Origin: Peribacillus loiseleuriae
GTDB lineage: Bacteria; Bacillota; Bacilli; Bacillales; DSM-1321
NCBI RefSeq assembly: GCF_001183985.1
Contig: NZ_LFZW01000001.1
Span: forward strand, 2,181,357-2,245,356
Direction: 5' to 3'
DNA: 64,000 bases
Both the position numbers and the translations under genes were made by a program. Each line of letters opens with the position of its first letter. Position 1 is the first letter of the stretch. The notes below the pieces were generated by a model. That model was not told the origin of the DNA. It did no database searches and was given only the letters and a program-made list of their open reading frames with translations. Below are positions 16,501 through 50,863 of this stretch, piece by piece.

Positions 16501-17004
16501 GTGAAAGGAAACGCCAAAGATGAACCACGCCAACATCGTGTATTACTCCCGAACGTAAAATTATATCCTATGAAGGTAGATAAATACGGAGCATATATAG
16601 GAATGATAGTAGAAATAGAAGGGAAAAAACAACAAATTAATGATTGGAGAAGCAGCGATTCTACACATAAGCCTGTTGTTCAGTATATAGATCTTACAAA
16701 CGATTGGAAAAAGGAAGTAGTTGTATTTTATACAGAAGGAACAGGGACAGGATTGAGTTTAGGGAAAGTTCATATTATAAATCCAACAAACTTTAAAGAA
16801 TTAAAAATTGAATCATTAGATGAAATTATAAAAAAACATATTCAATCTAAAGTAGAGAAATATGATGATCGAGTAGAAGTTAAGGAGGAGGATAATAGAA
16901 CTCCTGAAGAAAGCGAGTTGATTAAACTTCGCAAAGAAATTCAACGCTTACTAATGGAAAATTATATTTTAAAGCAAGCAGCGCTGATAATAGGACGAAA
17001 GTAA
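16501..17004 (+). pseudogene. Chimera: VCBS-like protein fragment fused to IS3 OrfA tail
   Basis: Residues 1 to about 128 (LYPMKVDKYGAYIGMIVEIE, then IDLTNDWKKEVVVFYTEGTG and VHIINPTNFKE) resemble the C-terminal part of secreted VCBS-repeat-like proteins of Bacillus that lack their signal peptide here. From about residue 132 the sequence is the C-terminal coiled coil of an IS3-family OrfA (ELIKLRKEIQRLLMENYILKQAAL). The junction near 16880-16896 keeps the frame open, so a deletion or insertion joined two unrelated genes. There is no ribosome site at the GTG start, and a functional product is unlikely. Confidence 0.65.
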
Positions 17005-17862
17005 ATGTGATTAACAACAATCGTCACAAATGCTCGATATCAGCAATGTGTGACGTCCTACAAATTCCAAGAAGTACTTATTATTGAAACGAAAGAAAGA
17101 TCAGCAGAGGATGACATTACTTCAGATGTAATTGATGTATTTCAGGCAAGCCGTCAAAATTACGGGACACGTAAAATTAAGGTAGAACTAAAAAAACGTG
17201 ATCTCATCGTTTCTAGACGAAGAATTGGACGCATCATGCAAGAACAGGGTCTGGTCTCTGCTTACACCCTAGCTCAATTTAAGCCTCATACGAAATCATG
17301 TAATGAATCAGAACAGAAGAATGAACTAAACCGTGAGTTCAACCAAGAGGAAGAAATGACAGTGATTGTAAGCGATTTGACGTACGTAAGAGTCCATCAA
17401 AAATGGTATTACGTATGTGTATTTGTCGACCTCTTTAATCGAGAAATCGTGGGCTTCAGTACAGGCCCAAACAAAGGTGCATTACTGGTTTATCGTGCAT
17501 TTGCCTCCATTAAGGTCGACCTGCGTAAAATACAGCTCTTTCATACGGATCGTGGAAATGAGTTTAAAAATAAGCTAATTGACGATGCTTTAGAGACATT
17601 TCATATTCAACGATCTTTGAGTATGAAAGGCTGCCCTTATGATAATGCGATAGCAGAAGCAACCTATAAAATAATAAAAACAGAGTTCGTAAAAGGAAAT
17701 TATTTTGAAAATATAGACCAACTAAAGTTGGAGCTAAATGATTACGTTCATTGGTTTAATCACATCCTAATTAATGGAACACTCGGATATTTAAGCCCTA
17801 TTGAATACAAAGTAAAATACTTTAAATTAATTGCCTAGTTTATACACACCATCAAATAATTA
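16880..17862 (+). mobile_element. IS3-family element remnant
   Basis: It comprises the last ~35 codons of orfA and a complete but frameshifted orfB. The orfA front and left terminal repeat are missing. The right limit is placed just before the truncated recombinase frame that begins at 17863. Flanking genes on both sides are truncated, indicating that insertion was accompanied by deletion. Confidence 0.7.
17007..17838 (+). pseudogene. IS3-family transposase OrfB, frameshifted
   Basis: The OrfB N-terminus is read from GTG 17007 (VINNNRHKCSISAMCDVLQI, PRSTYY) and ends at TGA near 17085. The rest continues in another frame as ETKERSAEDDITS, with an HTH_21-like region (QNYGTRKIKVELKK) and an integrase catalytic core with the DDE residues in SDLTYV, FHTDRGNEF and AIAEATYKIIKTE. 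One extra T in the STYY-E junction explains the shift. Apart from this the transposase is full length (about 275 residues), so inactivation appears recent. Confidence 0.8.
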
Positions 17863-23744: not shown

Positions 23745-23897
23745 TTCTTATCCAGAGAGGTGGAGGGACTGGCCCTTTGATACCTCAGCAACAGACTTAT
23801 TGTACTGTGCTAATTCCAGAAGCGAAAAGCTTGAAGATAAGAAGAGTGAATAGCCGTGGTGCTAAAACCTCTTCTTATTTTAAGAAGAGGTTTTTTT
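23745..23897 (+). promoter_or_regulatory. SAM riboswitch (S-box) with terminator
   Basis: Contains the conserved S-box elements in order: CTTATCCAGAGAGGTGGAGG, GGGACTGGCCC, GATACCTCAGCAAC, and GTGCTAATTCCAG, closed by GATAAG pairing with the first strand. It is followed by a strong terminator (AACCTCTTCTTA paired with its complement, then seven Ts, ending 23897). Binding of S-adenosylmethionine should favour termination. The regulated genes are most likely yitJ-metH, about 600 bases downstream. Confidence 0.95.
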
Positions 23898-24440
23898 ATG
23901 TAAAGATAATAAAGTTTTTTCAATAAGTTCTGATGTCTAACCTAGATCGGCATAAGTTATGCATGAGATTGAGCAAGGCGCTTATGTTTTTCTTATTAGC
24001 AAACTGAAAAACGGCAAAAGATCGTAGAAGGAGGAAACTTCCGACTGAAGGAGAAAGAATATTAGGAATATAATTTATTTTGAATGAATTAAAGAGATTA
24101 ATTAAAAAAGAGTAGGGGGAATCGTACATTCGATCCTGATTCACTATACTTTTTAGCAATTTATTGGATGTATCGGCTACTTTTACATCTTTCTTACAAA
24201 AGAGGTATTTACAGAAAATAATGTACTGATTTTTCGAACCGCGTTCAGGATTATATCCATTTGTTATATACCAATTAAATTATGTTCCAACAACGTAATG
24301 GAATGAAAGGAATAACGCCATCTTTAGAACTTGATTCTTTCACCTAAAATAGGAAAAAATAAAATGAGAAGCTGGATATCTATAAAAATTTCTTCAGTAA
24401 AATGTTTTTTCGTTTTCTTATATTTTTCAATGATAACAGC
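23898..24440. other. Long gap between the S-box and yitJ
   Basis: No plus-strand gene with a start and ribosome site was found. A 79-codon antisense frame at 23920-24159 has no ribosome site and no recognised homology. The stretch may be a leader of unusual length or the scar of a deleted gene. Confidence 0.4.
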
Positions 24441-24482
24441 GAGGGCGTCCTAAAAAGGTCAGACTCTTTTTAAGACGCCCTC
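24441..24482. repeat. Perfect hairpin just upstream of yitJ
   Basis: GAGGGCGTC pairs with GACGCCCTC, with an inner TAAAAA/TTTTTA stem around GGTCAGACTC. The core GGTCAGAC is the complement of the GTCTGACC repeat core at 2664 and 21046, so this may be a deletion derivative of that family. It lies immediately before the yitJ ribosome site and could influence translation. Confidence 0.5.
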
Positions 24483-24497
24483 AGGAAGGGGGTATTT

Positions 24498-26348
24498 ATG
24501 GATTTTCGTCAAGAATTGAAGAACAGAATATTAGTTGGAGAAGGAGCAATGGGGACATTATTGTATTCCCACGGCATTGACCTTTGTTATGAAGAATTGA
24601 ATATCACAAATCCAAATCAAATTGAAACGATTCATCAGGCATATTTGAATGCGGGAGCAGATATTATTCAATCAAATACATATGGTGCTAATTTTCATAA
24701 ATTAAAAAGGTATGGATTGGAGGATCAAGTAAGTCAAATCAATCGTAAAGGAATTGTAATTGCTAAAAAGGTGGCTGCACAGGGAAATGCATTTGTGTTC
24801 GGTACGATAGGTGCATTAAGGAGTATACGTAAATCAGATTTAAGCTTGGAGGAAATCAAACGTATTTTTCGGGAGCAGTTATATAGTCTCTTGCTTGAAG
24901 CACCAGATGGACTATTGCTTGAAACGTTTTACGATTTGGAAGAATTGGAGACAGTACTTCAGATTGCACGTCAGGAAACAGATTTACCAATCATCTCAAA
25001 CGTCTCACTTCATGAACTTGGAAATCTACAAAACGGAATGTCGTTAAACGAGGCATTTCAAAGACTGGAGCAGTTAGGAACAGATGTAGTTGGCGTCAAC
25101 TGTCGTCTTGGTCCACATCATATGATTCGTGCATTGGAATCCGTTTCATTACCAAAACAAGCGGCACTTGCCGTTTACCCGAATGCTAGTTTACCAGATT
25201 ATGTCGATGGAAGACTTGTATATGATGCAGTACCTGAATATTTTGCTTCTTCCGCACTTGAGCTTAGAGAGCAGGGAGCATCTATTATTGGTGGCTGCTG
25301 CGGCACGACACCTGTCCATATCGAAGCAATAAAAAATGCGGTACGTTTGCTAGCGCCAGTTCAGGATAAAGAAATAAAAGTAAGAAACATCGAGATTATC
25401 GAAGTGAGAAATTCTGATGAAGGGGTAGCATTCCATGAAAAAGCGAAAGTGGAAAGAACGATTTTAGTAGAATTGGATCCACCGAAAAAATTAGGGATTG
25501 AAACTTTTATGAATGGTGCACTTGCCTTAAAGAAAGCGGGTGTAGATTCTGTTACAATGGCTGACAATTCGCTCGCCTCACCGCGAGTTTCCAATGTAGC
25601 ATTAGGTACACTTTTAAAAACGCAACATGAAATGAAGCCGCTTCTTCATATAACATGCCGTGACCGTAATTTAATTGGTCTACAATCACACTTAATGGGA
25701 TTGCAAACGCTTGGTCTAAATGAGATTTTAGTGGTAACAGGTGATCCATCTAAAATTGGTGATTTTCCAGGTGCGACATCTGTATATGATTTATCATCAT
25801 TAGATTTAATTAGTCTTGTCAAACAATTTAATGAAGGACTTTCTTATTCTGGGCAAAGTTTAGGTCAAAAAACGAATTTTAAAGTTGCTGCTGCTTTTAA
25901 TCCAAATGTCAAATATCTCGATAAAGCAGTCAAGCGGGTTGAAAAGAAGATTGTTTGTGGGGCCGATTCCTTCTTAACGCAACCGATTTATTCCGTCAAA
26001 CAACTTGAGGATGTATACGAAGCAACGCAGCATTTAGACACACCTATTTTTCTTGGTATTATGCCATTAACAAGTTCTAGAAATGCTGAATTTATCCATA
26101 ACGAGGTGCCAGGTATCGTATTGCCAGAAGAGGTTCGCCGAGCAATGGCTTCTGCAGGCAATGATCCGATTAAAGGCAAGAATGAAGGAGTGGCTATAGC
26201 AAAGGAATTGGTGGATGCTGCCATGGATAAGTTCAAAGGAATCTATTTAATTACCCCGTTTTTATATTATGAAATGACGGCAGAATTAACGAAACATATT
26301 AGAAAAGTAGATAGTAGGCAAACTTCGGAGGTGGGAGCATATGAGTAA
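24498..26348 (+). CDS. yitJ: Bifunctional homocysteine S-methyltransferase / methylenetetrahydrofolate reductase
   Basis: A 616-residue fusion. Residues about 1-290 form the homocysteine S-methyltransferase barrel with the zinc cysteines in [10 protein letters not shown] and GGCCGTTP. Residues about 320-605 form the FAD-dependent 5,10-methylenetetrahydrofolate reductase ([32 protein letters not shown]). It supplies methyl groups for methionine from folate. GAAGGGGGTATTT precedes ATG 24498. The stop overlaps the metH start by 8 bases, indicating translational coupling. Regulation by the upstream S-box is inferred. Confidence 0.94.
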
Positions 26349-29300
26349 ACGGTTGATACAGAAACAAATGAATCGGAAAATTTTATTATTGGATGGCGCG
26401 ATGGGGACGATGTTACAAGCTGAGAATTTGAGCGCAGAGGATTTTGGTGGCGAGCAATATGAAGGATGTAACGAATATTTAACGATAACTCGTCCTGATA
26501 TCATTCGTTCCATTCATGAAAAATACTTGGAGGCCGGTGCAGACATCATTGAAACAAATACATTTGGTGCAACAAATATTGTGCTTGATGAGTATGATGT
26601 AGGTTATTTGGCATATAAACTAAACAAAGAATCTGCTGAAATTGCTAAGGCAGCTTGTGAAAAATATACGAGCGAAGAATGGCCTAGGTTCGTGGCAGGA
26701 GCTATGGGACCAACGACAAAAACCTTGTCTGTAACTGGTGGGACTACGTTTGAAACATTGACTGCTTCTTATGAAGAACAGGCATTAGGACTACTTGATG
26801 GTGGTGTGGATTTACTTTTAGTCGAAACATGTCAAGATATGTTAAATGTGAAGGCAGCCTTTTCAGGAATCAAAGGGGCGTTTGCTAAATTTGGTCGGGA
26901 AATCCCAATCATGATTTCTGGCACAATTGAACCGATGGGAACGACACTTGCCGGTCAGTCGATAGAAGCATTTTATCTTTCATGTGAACATATGAATCCT
27001 CTCGCGGTCGGATTGAATTGTGCGACTGGGCCAGAGTTCATGATTGACCATATTAGAACATTGGCGAATTTATCAAATAGAGCAGTTAGTTGTTATCCTA
27101 ATGCGGGCCTCCCGGATGAGGAAGGGCATTATCACGAATCACCGAAATCTTTAGCAGAAAAAATGAAACAGTTCGCTGAAAAAGGATGGGTTAACATCAT
27201 TGGTGGTTGCTGTGGTACGACACCTGAGCATATTGTTGAATTGGTAAAAGTGCTTGAATTGATTGAGCCACGAACTATTGAAAATAATACACACGGTCAT
27301 GCAATATCAGGAATCGAGCCCCTTATCTATGATGATTCAATGCGTCCGTTATTTGTCGGAGAGCGGACGAACGTTATCGGATCACGTAAATTCAAGGAAT
27401 TGATCAGAGAAAAGAAATTTGAACAAGCGGCAGAAATTGCCCGTGCCCAAGTAAAAAAAGGAGCTCATGTTATTGATATTTGTCTGGCAGATCCTGATGA
27501 CGATGAATTAGGGAATATAAAAGAGTTCGTTACTGAAGTGGTTAAGAAAATCAAGGTACCACTTGTGATCGATACGACGGATGAAGCTGTCTTGGAGGAA
27601 GCGTTAAAAAGATCGCAAGGGAAAGCAATTATAAACTCCATTAACCTAGAGGATGGAGAAGAACGCTTTGAAAAGATTGTGCCACTCATTCATCAATATG
27701 GAGCTGCCGTTGTTGTTGGTACAATCGATGAAGAAGGTATGGCGGTTACAGCGGAAAGAAAGCTTGAAATTGCCAGGCGTTCTGTAGATCTACTTGTCAA
27801 TAAATATGGTTTGTCAAAAAGTGATTTGATTTTCGATCCGCTCGTTTTTCCAGTTGGGACAGGGGATGAGCAATATATCGGATCTGCTCTTGAAACGGTA
27901 AAAGGTATTCAGGCAATCAAAGAAACATTTCCGGAATGTTTGCTGATTCTTGGGATATCTAACGTTTCATTCGGTCTACCACCAAGGGGAAGGGAAATAC
28001 TCAATGCCGTTTTCCTATATCACTGTACGAAGGCGGGGCTGGATTACGCGATTGTCAATACGGAAAAACTAGAACGTTTTGCTTCGATACCGGAAGAAGA
28101 GGTCAAACTGGCTGAAGCTCTATTGTTCGATACATCATCAGAATCATTAGCCATTTTTACAGAATTTTATCGAGGTAAAAAAGCGGAAAAAAAAGAAAAT
28201 ACCGCAATTCTTCCTCTAGATGAACGATTGGCCAATTATATCATCGAAGGAACGAAAGAAGGCTTAATTGCTGATCTAAATAAGGCGCTTGATCGTGGAG
28301 ATGATCCGCTTGGAATTATCAATGGACCGTTAATGGATGGGATGGGGGAAGTAGGCCGTCTGTTTAATGATAACCAGTTAATCGTTGCTGAAGTTTTACA
28401 AAGTGCTGAAGCTATGAAAGCGGCTGTTACATATCTTGAACCGCTAATGGAAAATGCAGAAGACAGTGCTAAAAAAGGAAAAGTGTTACTAGCAACTGTC
28501 AAAGGGGATGTACATGATATTGGAAAGAACTTAGTAGACATTATTCTTTCCAATAACGGCTATGAAGTAATCGATCTTGGGATAAAAGTATCTTCACAGC
28601 AAATCATTGAAGAGGTTCGCAAGCATAATCCGACGGTTATTGGACTTTCTGGCCTGTTAGTCAAATCAGCCCAGCAAATGGTCCTCACAGCGCAGGATTT
28701 AAAACAAACAGGAATCGATATACCTATTCTAGTGGGTGGTGCCGCATTATCACGTAAATTTACAGATTTCAAAATTTCGCCAGAGTACGATGGACCTGTT
28801 TTGTATTCAAAAGATGCAATGGACGGGCTTGCAGTCGCAAATATTTTACATGACGATCGTAAAAAAACAGCGTATCTAAGAGAATTAAGTGAAAAACGTG
28901 AGACAGCAAGGGAAAATGCAGCGATTGTGGCTACGATGGAAAAACCGGTACGAAAAAAGGTAGAAGTAAAACCAATGTCTATTGTTCCTGTCAAAAAGCC
29001 TATTGATCAAATACGCCATGTATTGAAGGACTATCCGATAGATGTTGTTCAACCATACATAAACAGGCAAATGTTAATTGGTCACCATCTTGGTTTGAAA
29101 GGAAAAGTGGCTGAACTAGTGAAGCAGGGAAATGAGCGGGCGATTGAACTTAATGATCTTGTTGATGAATTAATCGATTTCTTGAAGTTGGACGATGAAT
29201 ACGGTATAAATGGTATTTATCAGTTCTTTCCTGCACAAAGCGAAGGAAATAAGGTCAAGATATATAATCCTGACAACCACAAAGAAATATTGGAAGAATT

Positions 29301-29790
29301 CGATTTTCCTCGTCAGGAAAGTAGCCCTTATTTATGTCTTGCCGATTATGTAAAACCTGTTTTGTCAGGTGAAATGGATTATGTCGGTTTCTTTCTTGTT
29401 TCGGCAGGCAAGGGAATTAGAAAATGGGCAGAAAAGTGGAAGCAGGAGGGTGACTTTTTAAAAAGCCATGCGATACAATCGCTTGCCCTTGAAACGGCAG
29501 AAGGATTTGCTGAAAGAATGCATCATTTGATGAGGGATGCGCAAGGAATTAGTGATCCGATAGATATGACTATGAAAGAGCGTTTTGCAGCAAAATATGC
29601 AGGTCAACGTTTTTCATTCGGATATCCTGCATGCCCTAATCTTGAAGACCAGGAAAAGCTTTTCCGTCTCTTAAAACCACAAGATATTGGGGTAGAATTG
29701 ACTGAAGGTTTTATGATGGCACCAGAAGCTTCCGTCTCAGCAATCGTTTTTGCACACCCTGAAGCACGATATTTTAATGTAGATAGGTAA
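26341..29790 (+). CDS. metH: Cobalamin-dependent methionine synthase
   Basis: An 1149-residue enzyme transferring the methyl group of 5-methyltetrahydrofolate to homocysteine through methylcobalamin. All four modules are present: homocysteine-binding barrel with zinc ligands in GLNCATGP and [10 protein letters not shown] (residues 1 to about 315), pterin-binding domain (about 340-600, [12 protein letters not shown]), cobalamin cap and B12-binding domain with the DVHDIGKN motif and axial ligand His725, and the C-terminal AdoMet-binding reactivation domain (about 900-1149, with the ending [11 protein letters not shown] region). It starts within the end of yitJ. The ribosome site GGAGGTGGGAGC is inside yitJ. 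Confidence 0.96.
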
Positions 29791-35957: not shown

Positions 35958-36158
35958 AAATATTAACATCATTCTTATCGTGTATATACAGGGAAAAGAA
36001 TTCGCTTACAATGAGATGTACCCATCAGGTAGAGGATGCTCGTGGATATTAAACGAATTTAAATCGCAACGACCAATTGAGACAATTACGAAATAGAAAT
36101 TGTAATATTTAGAATATTTTGTTATATTTAAAAAGAAAATTAAATAAGCGAATTAATA

Positions 36159-36285
36159 GGTGTAGATAAAGGTTTTTTAATTATCTACTTAAAAGGTACA
36201 TCGGTTAGAGTCCGACGCTGCCCCGCAGCTGTATTTGGGAGTGATTCGAAAGCGGTGATTATGAGTCTGTAGGCTTTGTCCACTT
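36159..36285 (+). promoter_or_regulatory. Cobalamin (B12) riboswitch
   Basis: The order of conserved elements fits the cobalamin aptamer: AGGTGTAGATAA with its pairing partner TTATCTAC, AAAAGG, the core GGTTAGAGTCCG, GCTGCCCCGCAGCTGTA (consensus GCnGCCCCGCnACTGT), and a 3' closing segment GAGTCTGTAGGCTTTGTCC (consensus GAGCCAGGAGACCTGCC) that is more diverged. The downstream terminator at 36366-36407 offers an expression platform. It precedes the methylcitrate-cycle genes. Confidence 0.85.
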
Positions 36286-36365
36286 AATAGTACATCAATT
36301 CCCTACGTGGATAGGGGGTGTTAATCGCAGATTAGCTAGCATGAAAATTTATAAATGAATGATTA

Positions 36366-36407
36366 TGTTATTTAAGCATTCTATTTAGAGAAGTAACAGT
36401 TTTTTTA
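36366..36407 (+). terminator. Terminator, probable expression platform of the B12 riboswitch
   Basis: TGTTATTT pairs with AAGTAACA (one G-U), followed by GTTTTTTTA. It lies 80 bases past the aptamer and before any coding frame. A second short hairpin CCCTA/TAGGG sits at 36301-36316. Confidence 0.6.
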
Positions 36408-36492
36408 TGTTTAGCTGCTGTTCCCCAAAAAAAGTGGCATGGTTGCTATTCAAAATTGTTCGCAATCAAGTAAAAGTAGAACAATCCCTTAG

Positions 36493-36684
36493 GTGCAGTA
36501 TACTATTACATCATTTGTAATTTCGAACAATCTAGATAATGAGAAAATTAGTACACTACAAGATAGTCATACAAAATTAAAAAATGAAATAGTATTACAA
36601 AGTATAGACCAAGAAGAAAAGAAGCTCCCTTTGCAAAATATTGATAACGCTTTCTTTATCTTGCATCAATACCTATTCGGATAG
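36493..36684 (+). CDS. Small hypothetical protein ahead of prpC (63 aa)
   Basis: A GTG-started frame ending 10 bases before prpC, in register with good coding composition (VQYTITSFVISNNLDNEKIS... ending ILHQYLFG). The ribosome site is weak (CCCTTAG). It could be a genuine short gene under the riboswitch, a leader, or the C-terminal remnant of a larger lost gene. The abundance of charged residues and lack of stops argue for present or recent coding. No family is recognised. Confidence 0.4.
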   Translation: MQYTITSFVISNNLDNEKISTLQDSHTKLKNEIVLQSIDQEEKKLPLQNIDNAFFILHQYLFG

Positions 36685-36694
36685 GAGGAGTAAA

Positions 36695-37831
36695 ATGACT
36701 ACACAAGGAAATTATTCTCCTGGACTGGATGGAATTATAGCAGCTGAAACAAAGCTGTCTTTCCTAGATACAGTTCATAGTGAAATTGTCATCCAAGGAT
36801 ATGACCTTATTAAATTATCTGAAAGTCACGATTATTTAGATATTGTACATTTACTACTTCACGATCGATTCCCAACGTCAGAAGAAAAAGCAATACAAGA
36901 AAAAACGTTGCAGGATGAATATGTTGTCCCAGAAGATATTTTAGAGATATTGAAACTATTACCAAAGAAAACACATCCAATGGATGGGCTAAGGACGGGC
37001 ATTTCTGCCTTAGCTGGCTTTGATCCTCACATTAATGATCGTTCATCCACAGTAAACAAGAAACGCGCTTACACATTATTAGGGAAAGTGCCTAATATCG
37101 TAGCAAATAGCTACAGAGTGCTTAATAAACAAGAAGTTGTTTCTCCGAATAAAGATTTATCATATAGCGCCAATTTCTATTACATGATTACCGGAAAGGA
37201 GCCATCTGCAGTAGAGGAAAAAATATTTGACCAATCTTTAGTATTGTATAGCGAACATGAGATGCCGAATTCTACTTTTACAGCTAGAGTTATTGCTTCG
37301 ACACAGTCTGATTTGTATGGTGCTTTAACAGGAGCAGTAGCTTCATTGAAAGGTAGTTTACATGGAGGAGCGAATGAAGCTGTTATGTACATGCTTTTAG
37401 AAGCTGGTACAGTTGAAAAGTTTGAGCAGTTACTTAAACAGAAATTAGTCAACAAAGAAAAGATTATGGGATTTGGTCATCGCGTTTATATGAAGAAAAT
37501 GGATCCAAGAGCGCTCATCATGAAAAAAGCATTAAAACAGCTTTGCGATGCTAAGGGAGACGACTTACTTTATAAAATGTGTGAAGCTGGTGAAGTTGTT
37601 ATGGAAAGAGAAAAAGGGCTTTATCCAAATTTAGATTACTATGCAGCACCTGTTTACTACATGCTAGGTCTGCCAATTGAAATATATACACCGATTTTCT
37701 TTAGTGCTAGAACAGTAGGTTTATGTGCTCATGTCGTTGAGCAACATGCAAACAATCGACTTTTCCGACCTCGAGTCAATTATATTGGCGTGCGTCATAA
37801 TCACAACGTTTTATCTAACTTAAAACCGTAA
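36695..37831 (+). CDS. prpC: 2-methylcitrate synthase
   Basis: Condenses propionyl-CoA with oxaloacetate. A 378-residue citrate synthase-fold protein starting MTTQGNYSPGLDGIIAAE. ATG 36695 has ATAGGAGGAGTAAA upstream, and the frame extends further back without a ribosome site. Active-site segments are GSLHGGANEAVM and MGFGHRVYMKKMDPRA, with FSARTVGLCAHVVEQ near the end. Sequence alone does not separate citrate from methylcitrate synthase. The adjacent prpD and prpB genes decide it, as in mmgD-mmgE-yqiQ of B. subtilis. Confidence 0.88.
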   Translation: MTTQGNYSPGLDGIIAAETKLSFLDTVHSEIVIQGYDLIKLSESHDYLDIVHLLLHDRFPTSEEKAIQEKTLQDEYVVPEDILEILKLLPKKTHPMDGLRTGISALAGFDPHINDRSSTVNKKRAYTLLGKVPNIVANSYRVLNKQEVVSPNKDLSYSANFYYMITGKEPSAVEEKIFDQSLVLYSEHEMPNSTFTARVIASTQSDLYGALTGAVASLKGSLHGGANEAVMYMLLEAGTVEKFEQLLKQKLVNKEKIMGFGHRVYMKKMDPRALIMKKALKQLCDAKGDDLLYKMCEAGEVVMEREKGLYPNLDYYAAPVYYMLGLPIEIYTPIFFSARTVGLCAHVVEQHANNRLFRPRVNYIGVRHNHNVLSNLKP

Positions 37832-37888
37832 GATATTAGCTCGCCGGATGGCCGTTAATCAGAACGTCCATCCTAATAATAAAGTGAA

Positions 37889-38046
37889 AATTCAATCATT
37901 CGAGGGGGTTCCTTCATCCCCCAATGATTGTTAGTCCCGTTCTAGTGTCGCTATATCTCACCAATCAGGCTTTTACGGGCAAGTTATCCACTACGCTTTT
38001 TCGATATTCCTCTAAGCCTTAAGGTGGTGGTCATACTGCCCATTAA
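37889..38046 (-). repeat. Double-hairpin repeat, copy C (inverted)
   Basis: Read on the minus strand it gives module 1 (ATGGGCAGTATG...ACTTGCCCGTAAAAGC) followed by GGGACTAACAATCATTGGGG and the second hairpin, the same order as copies A and D on the plus strand. It occupies most of the prpC-prpD spacer. Confidence 0.65.
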
Positions 38047-38085
38047 TGCGGAATAAACAATTATTAATAGAAAGGGAATGAAATA

Positions 38086-39531
38086 ATGTTGGAAATAAAT
38101 GGAATTGATCAAACGCAAACAGATGTGTTATTAGCAGACATTGCAGATTACGTATTAAACAAAGAGATTACTAGTACAGAGGCATTTGAAACGGCTCGCT
38201 ATGTCCTACTTGATACACTTGGCTGTGGTATTTTAGCACTTCGATATCCAGAATGCACGAAATTATTAGGGCCGGTTGTTCCTGGTACAGTTGTTCCAAA
38301 TGGTACTCGTGTTCCAGGTACCTCATATGTACTAGACCCAGTTAAAGGCGCATTTAATATTGGCTGCATGATTCGTTGGTTAGACTATAACGATACATGG
38401 TTAGCGGCAGAATGGGGACACCCATCTGATAACTTGGGAGGTATTTTAGCCATAACTGATTACTTAAGTCGTGTGAATATTGCTGAAGGGAGAGAAGCGT
38501 TAACTGTAAAAGATGTTCTTGAAATGATGATTAAAGCACATGAGATACAAGGTGTATTAGCATTAGAAAATAGTTTGAATCGGGTTGGACTAGACCATGT
38601 TTTATTTGTAAAAATAGCGACAACTGCAGTCGTTACAAAAGCGCTAGGTGGAACTAGAGAAGAAATTATCCATGCCTTATCCAACGCATGGATTGATAAT
38701 TCAAGCTTGCGTACATATCGTCATACTCCCAATACGGGATCACGTAAATCATGGGCAGCTGGTGATGCTACAAGCCGTGCTGTGCACTTAGCGATGATGG
38801 CAGTTAAAGGAGAGATGGGATATCCAACAGCCCTTTCAGCACCAGGCTGGGGCTTCCAAGATGTATTATTCAATAAGCAAGAATTGAGACTTGCCCGTCC
38901 ACTAGATTCATATGTAATGGAAAATGTGTTATTTAAAGTATCTTTCCCGGCTGAATTCCATGCGCAAACAGCTGCAGAATGTGCAGTAAAATTGCATGCT
39001 GAAGTAAAAAATCGTCTTGATGAAATTGATCAAGTCAAAATTACGACACATGAATCAGCTATTCGAATTATTGACAAAGAAGGACCATTGAACAATCCTG
39101 CAGATCGTGATCACTGTATTCAATATATTACGGCTATTGGGTTAATTTATGGTGATATAACAGCTGACCATTATGAAGATGAAGCTGCAGATGATGTAAG
39201 AATTGATCAATTACGAAATAAGATGGTCGTTGTAGAAAACAAACAATACACGGTTGATTATCTTGATCCGAACAAGCGATCAATCGCCAATGCCGTTCAA
39301 ATATTTTATAAAGACGGATCAGTTTCAGATGTTGTGGAATGCGAATACCCGCTTGGACATCGTTTTAGAAGAGAAGAAGCGTTTCCGAAAATTATCAAGA
39401 AATTTACAAGCAACCTTAGTACTCACTATTCATCTAAGCAACAAAATCAAATTCAAAAAGCTTGTTTAGATTCCAATACATTAACAAACTTAAAAGTAAA
39501 TGAATTTGTAGATTTATTTATCTCGCATTAA
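38086..39531 (+). CDS. prpD: 2-methylcitrate dehydratase
   Basis: A 481-residue MmgE/PrpD-family protein converting 2-methylcitrate to methylaconitate. Family motifs include [57 protein letters not shown] and [17 protein letters not shown] 38086 follows AAAGGGAATGAAATA. It is separated from prpC by repeat C and from prpB by repeat D, so the operon has been invaded by two copies of the same element in opposite orientation without apparent damage to the coding sequence. Confidence 0.93.
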
Positions 39532-39646
39532 CGAGTAATAACCCCCACCTCAAGGTTTAGGGAAATCGAGGAAGCGTAGGTGAGGGATAACTGCCCATAG
39601 AACGGGACTAACAATCAGTGGGGGATGAAGCCCCCACTGATTGAAG
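39531..39646 (+). repeat. Double-hairpin repeat, copy D
   Basis: Module 1 has CCCCCACCT and AGGTGAGGG arms and ends TAACTGCCCAT. Module 2 is a perfect hairpin, CAATCAGTGGGGG and CCCCCACTGATTG, followed by AAG. Best-preserved second hairpin of the family. It begins at the prpD stop. Confidence 0.7.
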
Positions 39647-39677
39647 TTTCACTATATAATCTAAGGGGGAAGTTCAA

Positions 39678-40586
39678 ATGGCTTGGATCGTAAATCAACA
39701 ATCAACACAAGCAGATTTAGCAAACCGTTTTCGGAAATTAATAGAAGCACCTGGGATTTTACAAATTCCAGGTGCTCACGATGCGATGGCGGGACTTGTA
39801 GCTAAAAAAACAGGTTTCAAAGCTCTTTATTTATCTGGAGCTGCGTACACAGCAAGCCGTGGTTTGCCCGATTTAGGCATTGTGTCATCAGATGAAGTAG
39901 CACGACGAGCTAGGGATATTGTTCGAGCTACAGATTTACCCATACTTGTAGACATCGATACAGGTTTTGGTGGTGTACTGAATGTGGCACGGACTGCTAG
40001 AGAAATGCAGGAAGTAGGTGTAGCTGCTGTTCAAATAGAAGATCAAGATCTTCCAAAGAAATGCGGTCACTTAAATGGGAAAAAGCTTGTATCGAAACAA
40101 GAAATGATGCAAAAAATTAAAATGATTAAACAGGTTGCACCTTCAATGTTCGTAGTGGCACGTACTGATGCAAGAGCTGTAGAGGGAGTAGCAGCAGCAA
40201 TCGAGAGAGTAACTGCTTATATTGAAGCAGGAGCGGATGCTATATTTCCTGAAGCACTCCAATCGGAAGAGGAGTTCCGTCAGTTTGCAAAGCAAATTAA
40301 TGTGCCTTTACTAGCGAATATGACAGAGTTTGGTAAGACACCTTATTATACAGCCGAAGAATTTCAGGAAATGGGCTATCAGATGGTAATTTATCCTGTT
40401 ACTTCACTTCGCGTTGCAGCCAAAGCATATGAGCGAGTATTTGAACAAATTAAGCAGGACGGCACACAGAAAGGCGCATTACAGAATATGCAAACTCGTA
40501 GCGAGTTGTACGAAACGATTGCTTATCATAACTTTGAAGACCTAGATCAAGACATTTCCAAAACCGTCTTAACGAAAGAACAATAG
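39678..40586 (+). CDS. prpB: 2-methylisocitrate lyase
   Basis: Cleaves 2-methylisocitrate to pyruvate and succinate, completing propionate oxidation. The 302-residue length and motifs fit PrpB: IPGAHDAMAGLVAKKTGF, GLPDLGIVSSDEVA, VDIDTGFGG (metal binding), the catalytic loop KKCGHLNGKKLV and ARTDARAVEGV. ATG 39678 follows AAGGGGGAAG. A hairpin terminator lies about 75 bases downstream. Confidence 0.95.
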   Translation: MAWIVNQQSTQADLANRFRKLIEAPGILQIPGAHDAMAGLVAKKTGFKALYLSGAAYTASRGLPDLGIVSSDEVARRARDIVRATDLPILVDIDTGFGGVLNVARTAREMQEVGVAAVQIEDQDLPKKCGHLNGKKLVSKQEMMQKIKMIKQVAPSMFVVARTDARAVEGVAAAIERVTAYIEAGADAIFPEALQSEEEFRQFAKQINVPLLANMTEFGKTPYYTAEEFQEMGYQMVIYPVTSLRVAAKAYERVFEQIKQDGTQKGALQNMQTRSELYETIAYHNFEDLDQDISKTVLTKEQ

Positions 40587-49731: not shown

Positions 49732-50863
49732 ATGACTGATTTTATAACCAAATTAAGTGATATTATTTGGGGACCGCCACTGTTGATTTTGTTAGTAGGA
49801 ACTGGTGTTTATTTAACGTTTCGTATTTCTTTCCTTCAATTTAGTAAACTTCCATATGCATTAAAGCTCGCTTTTTCAAAGAATCAAGACCATTCTTCAG
49901 AAGGAGACATCTCTCACTTTCAATCATTAATGACCGCTTTGGCTGCTACAATAGGTACTGGTAATATTGCTGGTGTTGCTACTGCTGTTGTTTTAGGCGG
50001 ACCAGGTGCGGTATTTTGGATGTGGATTCCTGCACTTGTTGGAATGGCAACTAAGTATGCTGAAGCGATTCTTGCCGTCAAATACCGGACAGTTGGCAAG
50101 CGTGGCGAAATGGCTGGAGGGCCGATGTATTATATTGAAAGAGGTTTAGGATGGAAATGGCTGGCTGTCCTTTTTGCTCTTTTTGGTGCCATCGGCCTTT
50201 GCCTTTGGGATCGGAAGTACTGTTCAATCCAATTCTGTGGCTGCTGCAGGCGCTATTGGCGCAGTGATACGTTATGGTGTAGCACGGGGAGTATTCTCAA
50301 ATGAAGCGGGTATGGGATCTGCTCCAATTGCAGCTGCAGCAGCTAAGACGGATCATCCAGGACGTCAGGCTCTAATTTCAATGACTGGAACATTTCTTGA
50401 TACGATTGTCGTGTGTTCGATAACTGGTATAACGTTAGTAATGGGAGGTTTATATTCGGATAGTAAATTATCTGGTGCTGCTTTAACGACCAAAACATTT
50501 GATCAAATGCTTCCAGGCGTAGGTGGCTGGATTGTTACAATTGGCATTATCTTTTTTGCTTATTCCACTGTGTTAGGATGGGCATACTATGGTGAAAAAT
50601 GTTTTGAATATTTATTTGGAATCCGCTCAATTATATGGTACAGGATTTGTTACACTTTATCTGTCGTTGTTGGTGCTGGTATGAGTCTCGGATTGGTATG
50701 GACCATTGCTGATGTCTTTAATGGATTAATGGCGATTCCGAACTTAATTGCTCTTGTTGCTTTAGCGGGAGTTGTCGTTGCGGAAACTAAAGATTTTAAT
50801 AAAATATTGGCACAGGAAAAAAGAGAGAAAAAGAAAAATATTGATATCACACATTCCACATAA
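49732..50863 (+). pseudogene. Sodium:alanine symporter (AGCS/AlsT family), deleted and frameshifted
   Basis: The N part ([51 protein letters not shown]) and the C part ([20 protein letters not shown], then TKTFDQMLPGVGGWIV) are both typical AGCS sequences but lie in different frames. The shift occurs at GCCATCGGCCTTTGCCTTTG (about 50189-50208). In addition, the stretch normally between QSNSV and the [12 protein letters not shown] motif, around 90 residues in intact family members, is missing: QSNSV runs directly into [13 protein letters not shown]. The gene is therefore dead as a transporter. It would be about 470 residues if complete. Confidence 0.88.

Follow-up and report, generated by a model that had tools for sequence, protein, structure and literature searches.

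A decayed cobalamin riboswitch upstream of the methylcitrate cycle operon of Peribacillus loiseleuriae and its intact counterparts in the Bacillales

Propionyl-CoA can be routed through the methylcitrate cycle or through the B12-dependent methylmalonyl-CoA mutase (MCM), and a leader sequence in Peribacillus loiseleuriae raises the question of whether cobalamin controls the former. The leader lies in a 64,000-nucleotide stretch of the genome (the window) and was described in an earlier note, made from the sequence alone, as a cobalamin riboswitch with a conserved aptamer core and a downstream terminator preceding the methylcitrate cycle genes. The position of the element was borne out by family searches, which place prpC (36695..37831), prpD (38086..39531; TIGR02330, 884.1 bits, cut-off 458) and prpB (39678..40586; TIGR02317, 435.8 bits, cut-off 354.4) in a row downstream of it as an intact methylcitrate cycle operon, prpCDB; these and all features below are on the forward strand. 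PrpC matches the citrate/2-methylcitrate synthase families (NF009004, 707.5 bits, above cut-off; TIGR01800, 408.3 bits against a cut-off of 421.3) and is assigned to the methylcitrate type by its operon context only. The element itself, at 36141..36297, is a decayed cobalamin riboswitch. It most probably descends from an adenosylcobalamin (AdoCbl)-type riboswitch that in relatives would act as a transcriptional OFF switch, and probably decayed after the loss of MCM.

The Rfam cobalamin model (RF00174) matches 36152-36292 with 32.9 bits (E 1.3e-4), above the gathering cut-off of 31.5, so the covariance check proposed for the element gave a match. R1, a covariance model built from the intact aptamers of prp leaders, scores the same copy at 83.6 bits (E 4e-18). 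Because the Rfam cut-off is reached and the R1 score is so high, the resemblance to a cobalamin aptamer is not due to chance. Both core motifs quoted in the earlier note are present (36203-36214 and 36217-36233); the conservation ascribed to the core did not hold up. The quoted GCTGCCCCGCAGCTGTA carries two substitutions at positions that are invariant in 20 intact copies, and the B12 box (CCACTG in 20/20 intact prp copies) is deleted. The deletion point is at 36250..36252, where about 43 nt (44 alignment columns), comprising the box and the following helix, are gone in the alignment against L005, L006, L007 and L036. What is presumably the J6/3 core, AG-CAGGAGACCTGCC in intact copies, has been replaced by GAGTCTGTAGGCTTTGTCC, and its remnant at 36263..36274 reads GAGTCTGTAGGC versus AAGCCAGGAGAC in L006 and L007. 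P4, P5 and the P13/L13 hairpin (36301..36318, L13 CGTGGA) are largely kept, and four of the five L5-L13 kissing pairs, as defined from relatives, are still possible by eye.

The downstream terminator could not be upheld. The sole terminator-like structure seen in the window leader is a weak AT-rich hairpin before T7 (36367..36397, -2.1 kcal/mol), and the intrinsic terminator of the relatives is ruined at 36395..36426, where the 5' arm AACAG is kept, the T-run has shifted into the loop and CCCC replaces the T-tract; no proper terminator is left as an expression platform. Upstream of the aptamer remnant is a promoter-like block (36100..36128; TTGTAA, a 17-nt spacer and TATATT preceded by TG), found by a consensus scan in which such sites were equally frequent in shuffled sequence; by eye, a similar block stands at the same place in the aligned leaders of relatives. 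The earlier note had named an independent promoter between 36410 and 36695 as an objection to control by the leader. The consensus scan found no plus-strand site in this interval and a separate prpC promoter was rejected, the conserved block being the one upstream of the aptamer. A cre-like site, TGATAACGCTTTCT (36642..36655), lies 53 nt before the prpC start and is a possible CcpA site by the cre consensus; cre-like sites occur at a similar distance before prpC in some relatives.

The conservation of the aptamer was measured over the 69 columns that do not vary among 20 intact prp aptamers. Of these positions the window copy keeps 46, compared with 52 in Peribacillus huizhouensis, 57 in Lentibacillus populi, 36 in Sporosarcina limicola and 46 in the metagenome-assembled genome (MAG) Bu78. 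In the order sample described below, eleven intact prp leaders keep 64-69, one of them (G294) being the L018 locus that helped to define the set, and four aptamers from relatives that precede other genes keep 59-68. The 5.43-Mb genome of the window strain has three further cobalamin riboswitches (122, 102 and 61 bits), which stand upstream of metE, of a btuF-like gene (a further frame intervening) and of a btuC-like gene, and the strain therefore still senses B12. The metE leader (L001, 1501-1901) has S-adenosylmethionine (SAM) and cobalamin riboswitches in tandem.

Intact prp leaders were found in two samples of relatives, in which they score 103-130 bits with RF00174. In the named sample, 80 prpD loci were found and the model search was run on 69 of them plus the window, the 11 omitted being mostly MAGs of other phyla; 20 of the 69 have an intact riboswitch before prp (R1 and Rfam). 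The order sample consisted of 397 genomes drawn evenly across the order, with PrpD called at E 1e-100 and about 4 kb upstream of prpD examined; PrpD is encoded by 71 genomes, and the 12 of these that have the intact element are spread over 8 of the 21 PrpD-bearing families. The samples overlap (L018 = G294, L036 = G011, L027 = G142 and others), and two intact loci occur in both, giving 30 distinct intact loci in the Bacillales. A prpC gene follows the riboswitch in 27 of these (tblastn); at L021, L025 and L063 tblastn detected no PrpC within 1.9 kb and prpD comes next, and the kissing loop of these three shows a C-G to U-A change. At L025 (5018-5608) an inserted frame with repeated PKSGKYCPRSE-like units lies between riboswitch and prpD, and upstream of prp, Anoxybacillus rupiensis (L044, 3483-4329) has two oppositely oriented cobalamin riboswitches separated by about 460 nt.

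Pairing was assessed in A3, an alignment of 29 intact leaders that omits G439 (L141), whose best hairpin differs, and L116, which is the same locus as L018. The terminator, P13 and the kissing loop together are formed in 98.2% of cells, with five pairs changed on both sides, a result reached by 0/500 shuffles, while the antiterminator TGTTAAG/CTTAACA is formed in 98.0% of cells with three double-changed pairs (reached by 1/500 shuffles). The L5-L13 kissing loop is paired in 99.3% of cells. Judged from these scores and pairings, an intact cobalamin riboswitch before the prp genes is real and widespread in the Bacillales. In the intact leaders, terminator and antiterminator share one strand and the antiterminator starts beside P13, as in the corrinoid riboswitch measured at Priestia megaterium metE, and B12 repression is for this reason the likely sign of a response to cobalamin that we infer for these leaders. 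The likeness to the repressing metE switch extends to the kissing loop, P13, the alternative antiterminator and the terminator (PMC10653944); the two differ in the downstream gene, and the function measured there would apply to prp by analogy.

PF01642 was searched in 35 of 36 genus genomes, G008 (87% complete) being omitted, and 33 of the 35 encode MutB and MutA besides an IcmF-type mutase; MutA and MutB are absent only in the window strain (G000) and P. huizhouensis (G010), which have the IcmF-type alone. The expected mutase is thus found in relatives and missing from the window genome. In two relatives (L204 and L205) meaB-mutB-mutA comes after ABC-transporter-like genes, and the three genes are missing from the corresponding syntenic site of the window strain (L202) and P. 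huizhouensis (L203), where TetR- and MFS-like genes follow instead and the epimerase and MmdA-like genes stay. The names mutB, mutA and meaB were given by NCBIfam in L205 only, the other neighbours being named from reading. A family search for the epimerase did not separate the genomes, since the G000 epimerase is above cut-off, with the MmdA-like carboxyltransferase beside it.

The association extends beyond the genus. The PF01642 search covered the genomes of 55 of these 69 named loci, 54 of which form the comparison: all 20 genomes with an intact riboswitch have MutA/MutB, and of the 34 without, MutA/MutB occur in five, a 551-571-aa mutase takes their place in seven, and neither is present in 22. 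In the order sample the 12 genomes with a riboswitch are all MCM-bearing (eight MutA/MutB, four with a 558-570-aa type carrying RQYAGFG), and the 59 without comprise 14 MCM-bearing and 45 MCM-lacking genomes (Fisher p 7.5e-7, not phylogenetically corrected); counting MutA/MutB only, the figures are 8/12 versus 6/59 (p 1e-4). A non-MCM identity of the 558-570-aa mutases (G091, G242, G381 and G439) was considered and rejected, as their sequences contain RQYAGFG and, within EYIARGTY, a conserved Arg, where MutB has RQYAGFS and EYMVRNTY; we take these letters to mark MCM rather than isobutyryl-CoA mutase. All 30 distinct intact loci are in MCM-bearing genomes, and no intact riboswitch was found within about 4 kb upstream of prpD in any of the 45 MCM-lacking order genomes. 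The proposal that B12 switches between MCM and methylcitrate is therefore consistent with the relatives and fails for the window, where the switch is decayed and MCM absent. Remnants are also found in MCM-lacking genomes elsewhere: L. populi (RF00174, 32.1 bits) has an IcmF-type mutase only, and MAG Bu78 (R1, 22.3 bits) has no mutase match, like C. gottheilii, which shows a promoter-side match only (E 0.26).

The sister species bears on the age of the decay. The same leader scores 107-119 bits with RF00174 in five genus relatives and only 35.6 in P. huizhouensis, the closest (L005 = G010), whose copy has no large deletion but is badly damaged in the L5 region and carries J6/3 changes of its own. 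The two species share at least one alteration of J6/3, GGAG to GTAG, and the decay for this reason probably set in before they split. Between the two, the aptamer is identical at 104 of 155 positions (67%), with 45 gap columns, at a synonymous divergence (dS) of the prp genes of 0.29-0.32, whereas two Peribacillus with intact leaders (L006 and L007) share 192 of 196 aptamer positions (98%), with two gap columns, at a prp dS of 0.38-0.53. In the same pair of decayed leaders the promoter block retains 38 of 41 aligned positions (seven gap columns), and the ratios of non-synonymous to synonymous substitution (dN/dS) of prpC, prpD and prpB are 0.129, 0.075 and 0.140. By these comparisons, the prp operon and its promoter are under constraint and the aptamer is not.

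A cause and a sequence for these losses can be proposed. In relatives with bound B12, the L5-L13 kissing loop would hold P13, P13 would withhold the antiterminator strand TGTTAAG, and the terminator AACAACTTC-GAAGTTGTT-T7 would then form and turn prp off. Without B12 the antiterminator would form and the methylcitrate cycle would be made, often with the small protein described below. Such a switch would suit cells with the B12-dependent MCM as a second propionyl-CoA route. The window strain and P. huizhouensis would descend from an ancestor that lost meaB-mutB-mutA, after which methylcitrate would be the sole remaining of the two routes and repression by B12 useless or harmful; the aptamer, terminator and small gene may then have decayed, partly jointly and later separately, with the promoter and prp genes kept. 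Since the switch is decayed and the genome lacks MCM, B12 control of prp has very probably been lost in the window strain, and transcription of the operon is expected with or without B12, perhaps still subject to CcpA.

A 63-aa frame (36493..36684), which was suspected to be part of the leader, has a homologue in relatives: among the 30 intact leaders, tblastn finds a small gene of 66-91 aa in 21, starting with TTG, ATG or GTG and mostly behind a clear ribosome-binding site (RBS). One further weak match, in the G439 leader, holds a stop, and no match at E 0.01 was obtained by tblastn in eight intact leaders (L006-L011, L014 and L037). The dN/dS of the small gene is 0.22-0.42 in nine pairs. Profile A2 matches the window frame at E 4.7e-9, the match being interrupted by TAG and TAA stops, and the frame has lost its start region and RBS; the suspicion was broadly right. 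In a search of the order, 11 of the 12 strongest matches are in prp leaders, all but G011 and G242 of the 12 having gone into the search profile, and the twelfth (G015) follows a cobalamin riboswitch in a genome that has no prpD. This arrangement, a cobalamin riboswitch and a YvfG-like small gene with no prp genes, is seen at L091 and L092 (G028 and G015), both genomes being without PrpD. In Bacillus massiliglaciei (L036, 4509-5912) the small frame continues in frame into prpC, as if fused.

Searches of Pfam and NCBIfam with the small protein gave weak sub-threshold matches only. The small-protein profile finds the YvfG structure 2gsv (E 8.7e-5), and a fold model of three helices (predicted local distance difference test 89) matches 2gsv at a template modelling score of 0.80 (E 0.15). 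The predicted three-helix protein thus resembles YvfG (PF09628; PDB 2gsv and 2js1); unlike YvfG, it lies behind a cobalamin riboswitch and is without a PF09628 match, five relatives' proteins and the window frame giving none at E<=1 (Pfam gathering score 25). YvfG-type genome matches (L226 and L232) adjoin an rpoN-like gene, named from reading. Of the weaker genome matches, the one tested is YvfG (PF09628, 150.8 bits), G326 has no PF09628 match and several are YvfG-like by eye. The title of PDB entry 9a4s refers to a FER-YVFG model. By sequence comparison, what remains in the 63-aa frame is a degenerate YvfG-like small gene, whose counterparts lie between the riboswitch and the prp genes in most relatives that have an intact switch. 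A speculative extension, which we consider doubtful, is that the small protein is made only without B12 and acts directly on a propionyl-CoA branch enzyme, for example by holding back an idle MCM route; riboswitch, small protein and prpCDB would then form one rerouting module in many Bacillales that collapses upon MCM loss, as in the window.

Several observations weigh against a decay driven by MCM loss. P. huizhouensis retains a terminator-like hairpin, as does L. populi by eye, and the window strain and P. huizhouensis represent a single lineage. The copy of S. limicola (L034) is decayed (R1, 25.8 bits) despite MutA and MutB, and riboswitch decay therefore does not require MCM loss. In the order sample 14 MCM-bearing genomes have prpD without a riboswitch; one of them, G404, has no RQYAGF match and was counted as MCM-bearing all the same, which counts against the association because it lacks a riboswitch. 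Stratified by family, only three contrasts are available, all agreeing (p 0.125), and only comparisons across lineages make the association strong. As for the pairing statistics, the shuffles leave the relatedness among the leaders in place. The three other cobalamin aptamers of the window genome keep just 60, 60 and 50 of the 69 positions, and the count alone is therefore no proof of lost function; it is which positions were lost, more than how many, that indicates that the window aptamer no longer works. It is unlikely that the decay was unrelated to MCM loss, for example through a shift to other control such as CcpA with a coincidental MCM deletion. The S. limicola copy, the single lineage and the cre-like site kept before prpC would fit such a coincidence, which sits poorly with the restriction of intact prp riboswitches to MCM-bearing genomes (none in the 45 that lack it) and with the remnants in separate MCM-lacking genomes.

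A strongly divergent riboswitch that still works, with a trimmed aptamer or a new ligand, would explain the score above the Rfam threshold, the retention of much of P4, P5 and P13/L13, the kissing pairs that are still possible by eye, and the conserved promoter block. It is very unlikely, since the B12 box is deleted, J6/3 rewritten and the terminator T-tract lost, the sister species has different lesions and no common new form, and the aptamer evolves far faster than the promoter and coding sequence; a functional riboswitch in the window was rejected on the core lesions. That the lesions are assembly errors over an intact riboswitch is highly improbable: a single assembly of the strain was available, yet the lesions, substitutions included, are spread across the whole leader of a locus inside a 5.1-Mb contig, and the separately assembled sister has a decayed copy with at least one common change. 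Chance resemblance to a cobalamin aptamer, to which only the near-threshold Rfam score lends credit, is next to negligible and was rejected on the R1 score and on DNA-level homology, the first 152 nt of the query being 84-86% identical to intact riboswitches at the orthologous site in four genomes. Decay of a former B12 switch following MCM loss remains the preferred explanation.

Cobalamin riboswitches (RF00174) on the B12-independent isozymes metE and nrdAB share the aptamer family and the logic by which a B12-free enzyme is off when B12 is present. The prp target differs in being a pathway with MCM as its B12-dependent counterpart, and the window element in being decayed. In Bacillus methanolicus, elements are predicted on metE, nrdAB and cobalamin transport and biosynthesis genes (PMC4342826). 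The terms prp, methylcitrate and propion do not occur in the main text, supplements apart, of a large RNA-regulon survey (PMC3766115), and the passages seen of PMC11575231, PMC11071462, PMC11287211, PMC6167967, PMC2864759, PMC2700814 and PMC12713380 contain no riboswitch-controlled prp operon. Nine P. megaterium cobalamin riboswitches were tested in PMC9600662, and a prp leader may be among them. No report of a riboswitch-controlled prp operon was found in a literature search that did not reach supplements and most subscription papers, and within this reach the operon is apparently an unreported riboswitch target.

Propionate metabolism is thereby added to the likely targets of cobalamin riboswitches in the Bacillales, and the choice between the methylmalonyl and methylcitrate routes becomes testable. 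The window strain would represent a natural experiment, in which a B12 switch on a B12-free substitute is lost along with the B12-dependent enzyme. The locus also illustrates that a riboswitch annotation barely above the cut-off may belong to a pseudo-element, and it draws attention to an unnamed small protein probably under B12 control.

A second intact cobalamin riboswitch (112-121 bits) was seen in four genus genomes (L096, 1542-3149; also L098, L099 and L100). In L096 it is followed by an acyl-CoA dehydrogenase-like frame (NF058590, 526 bits, below the cut-off of 600), and a similar frame follows in L098 and L099 by reading. Elsewhere in the window, with gene names from reading, a SAM riboswitch precedes a yitJ-like gene and metH (23745-29790), the B12-dependent MetH being thus retained near prp. 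A pair of frames at 16501-17838 resembles an IS3-type transposase, and two overlapping frames at 49732-50863 look like pieces of one sodium:amino-acid carrier gene, possibly frameshifted.

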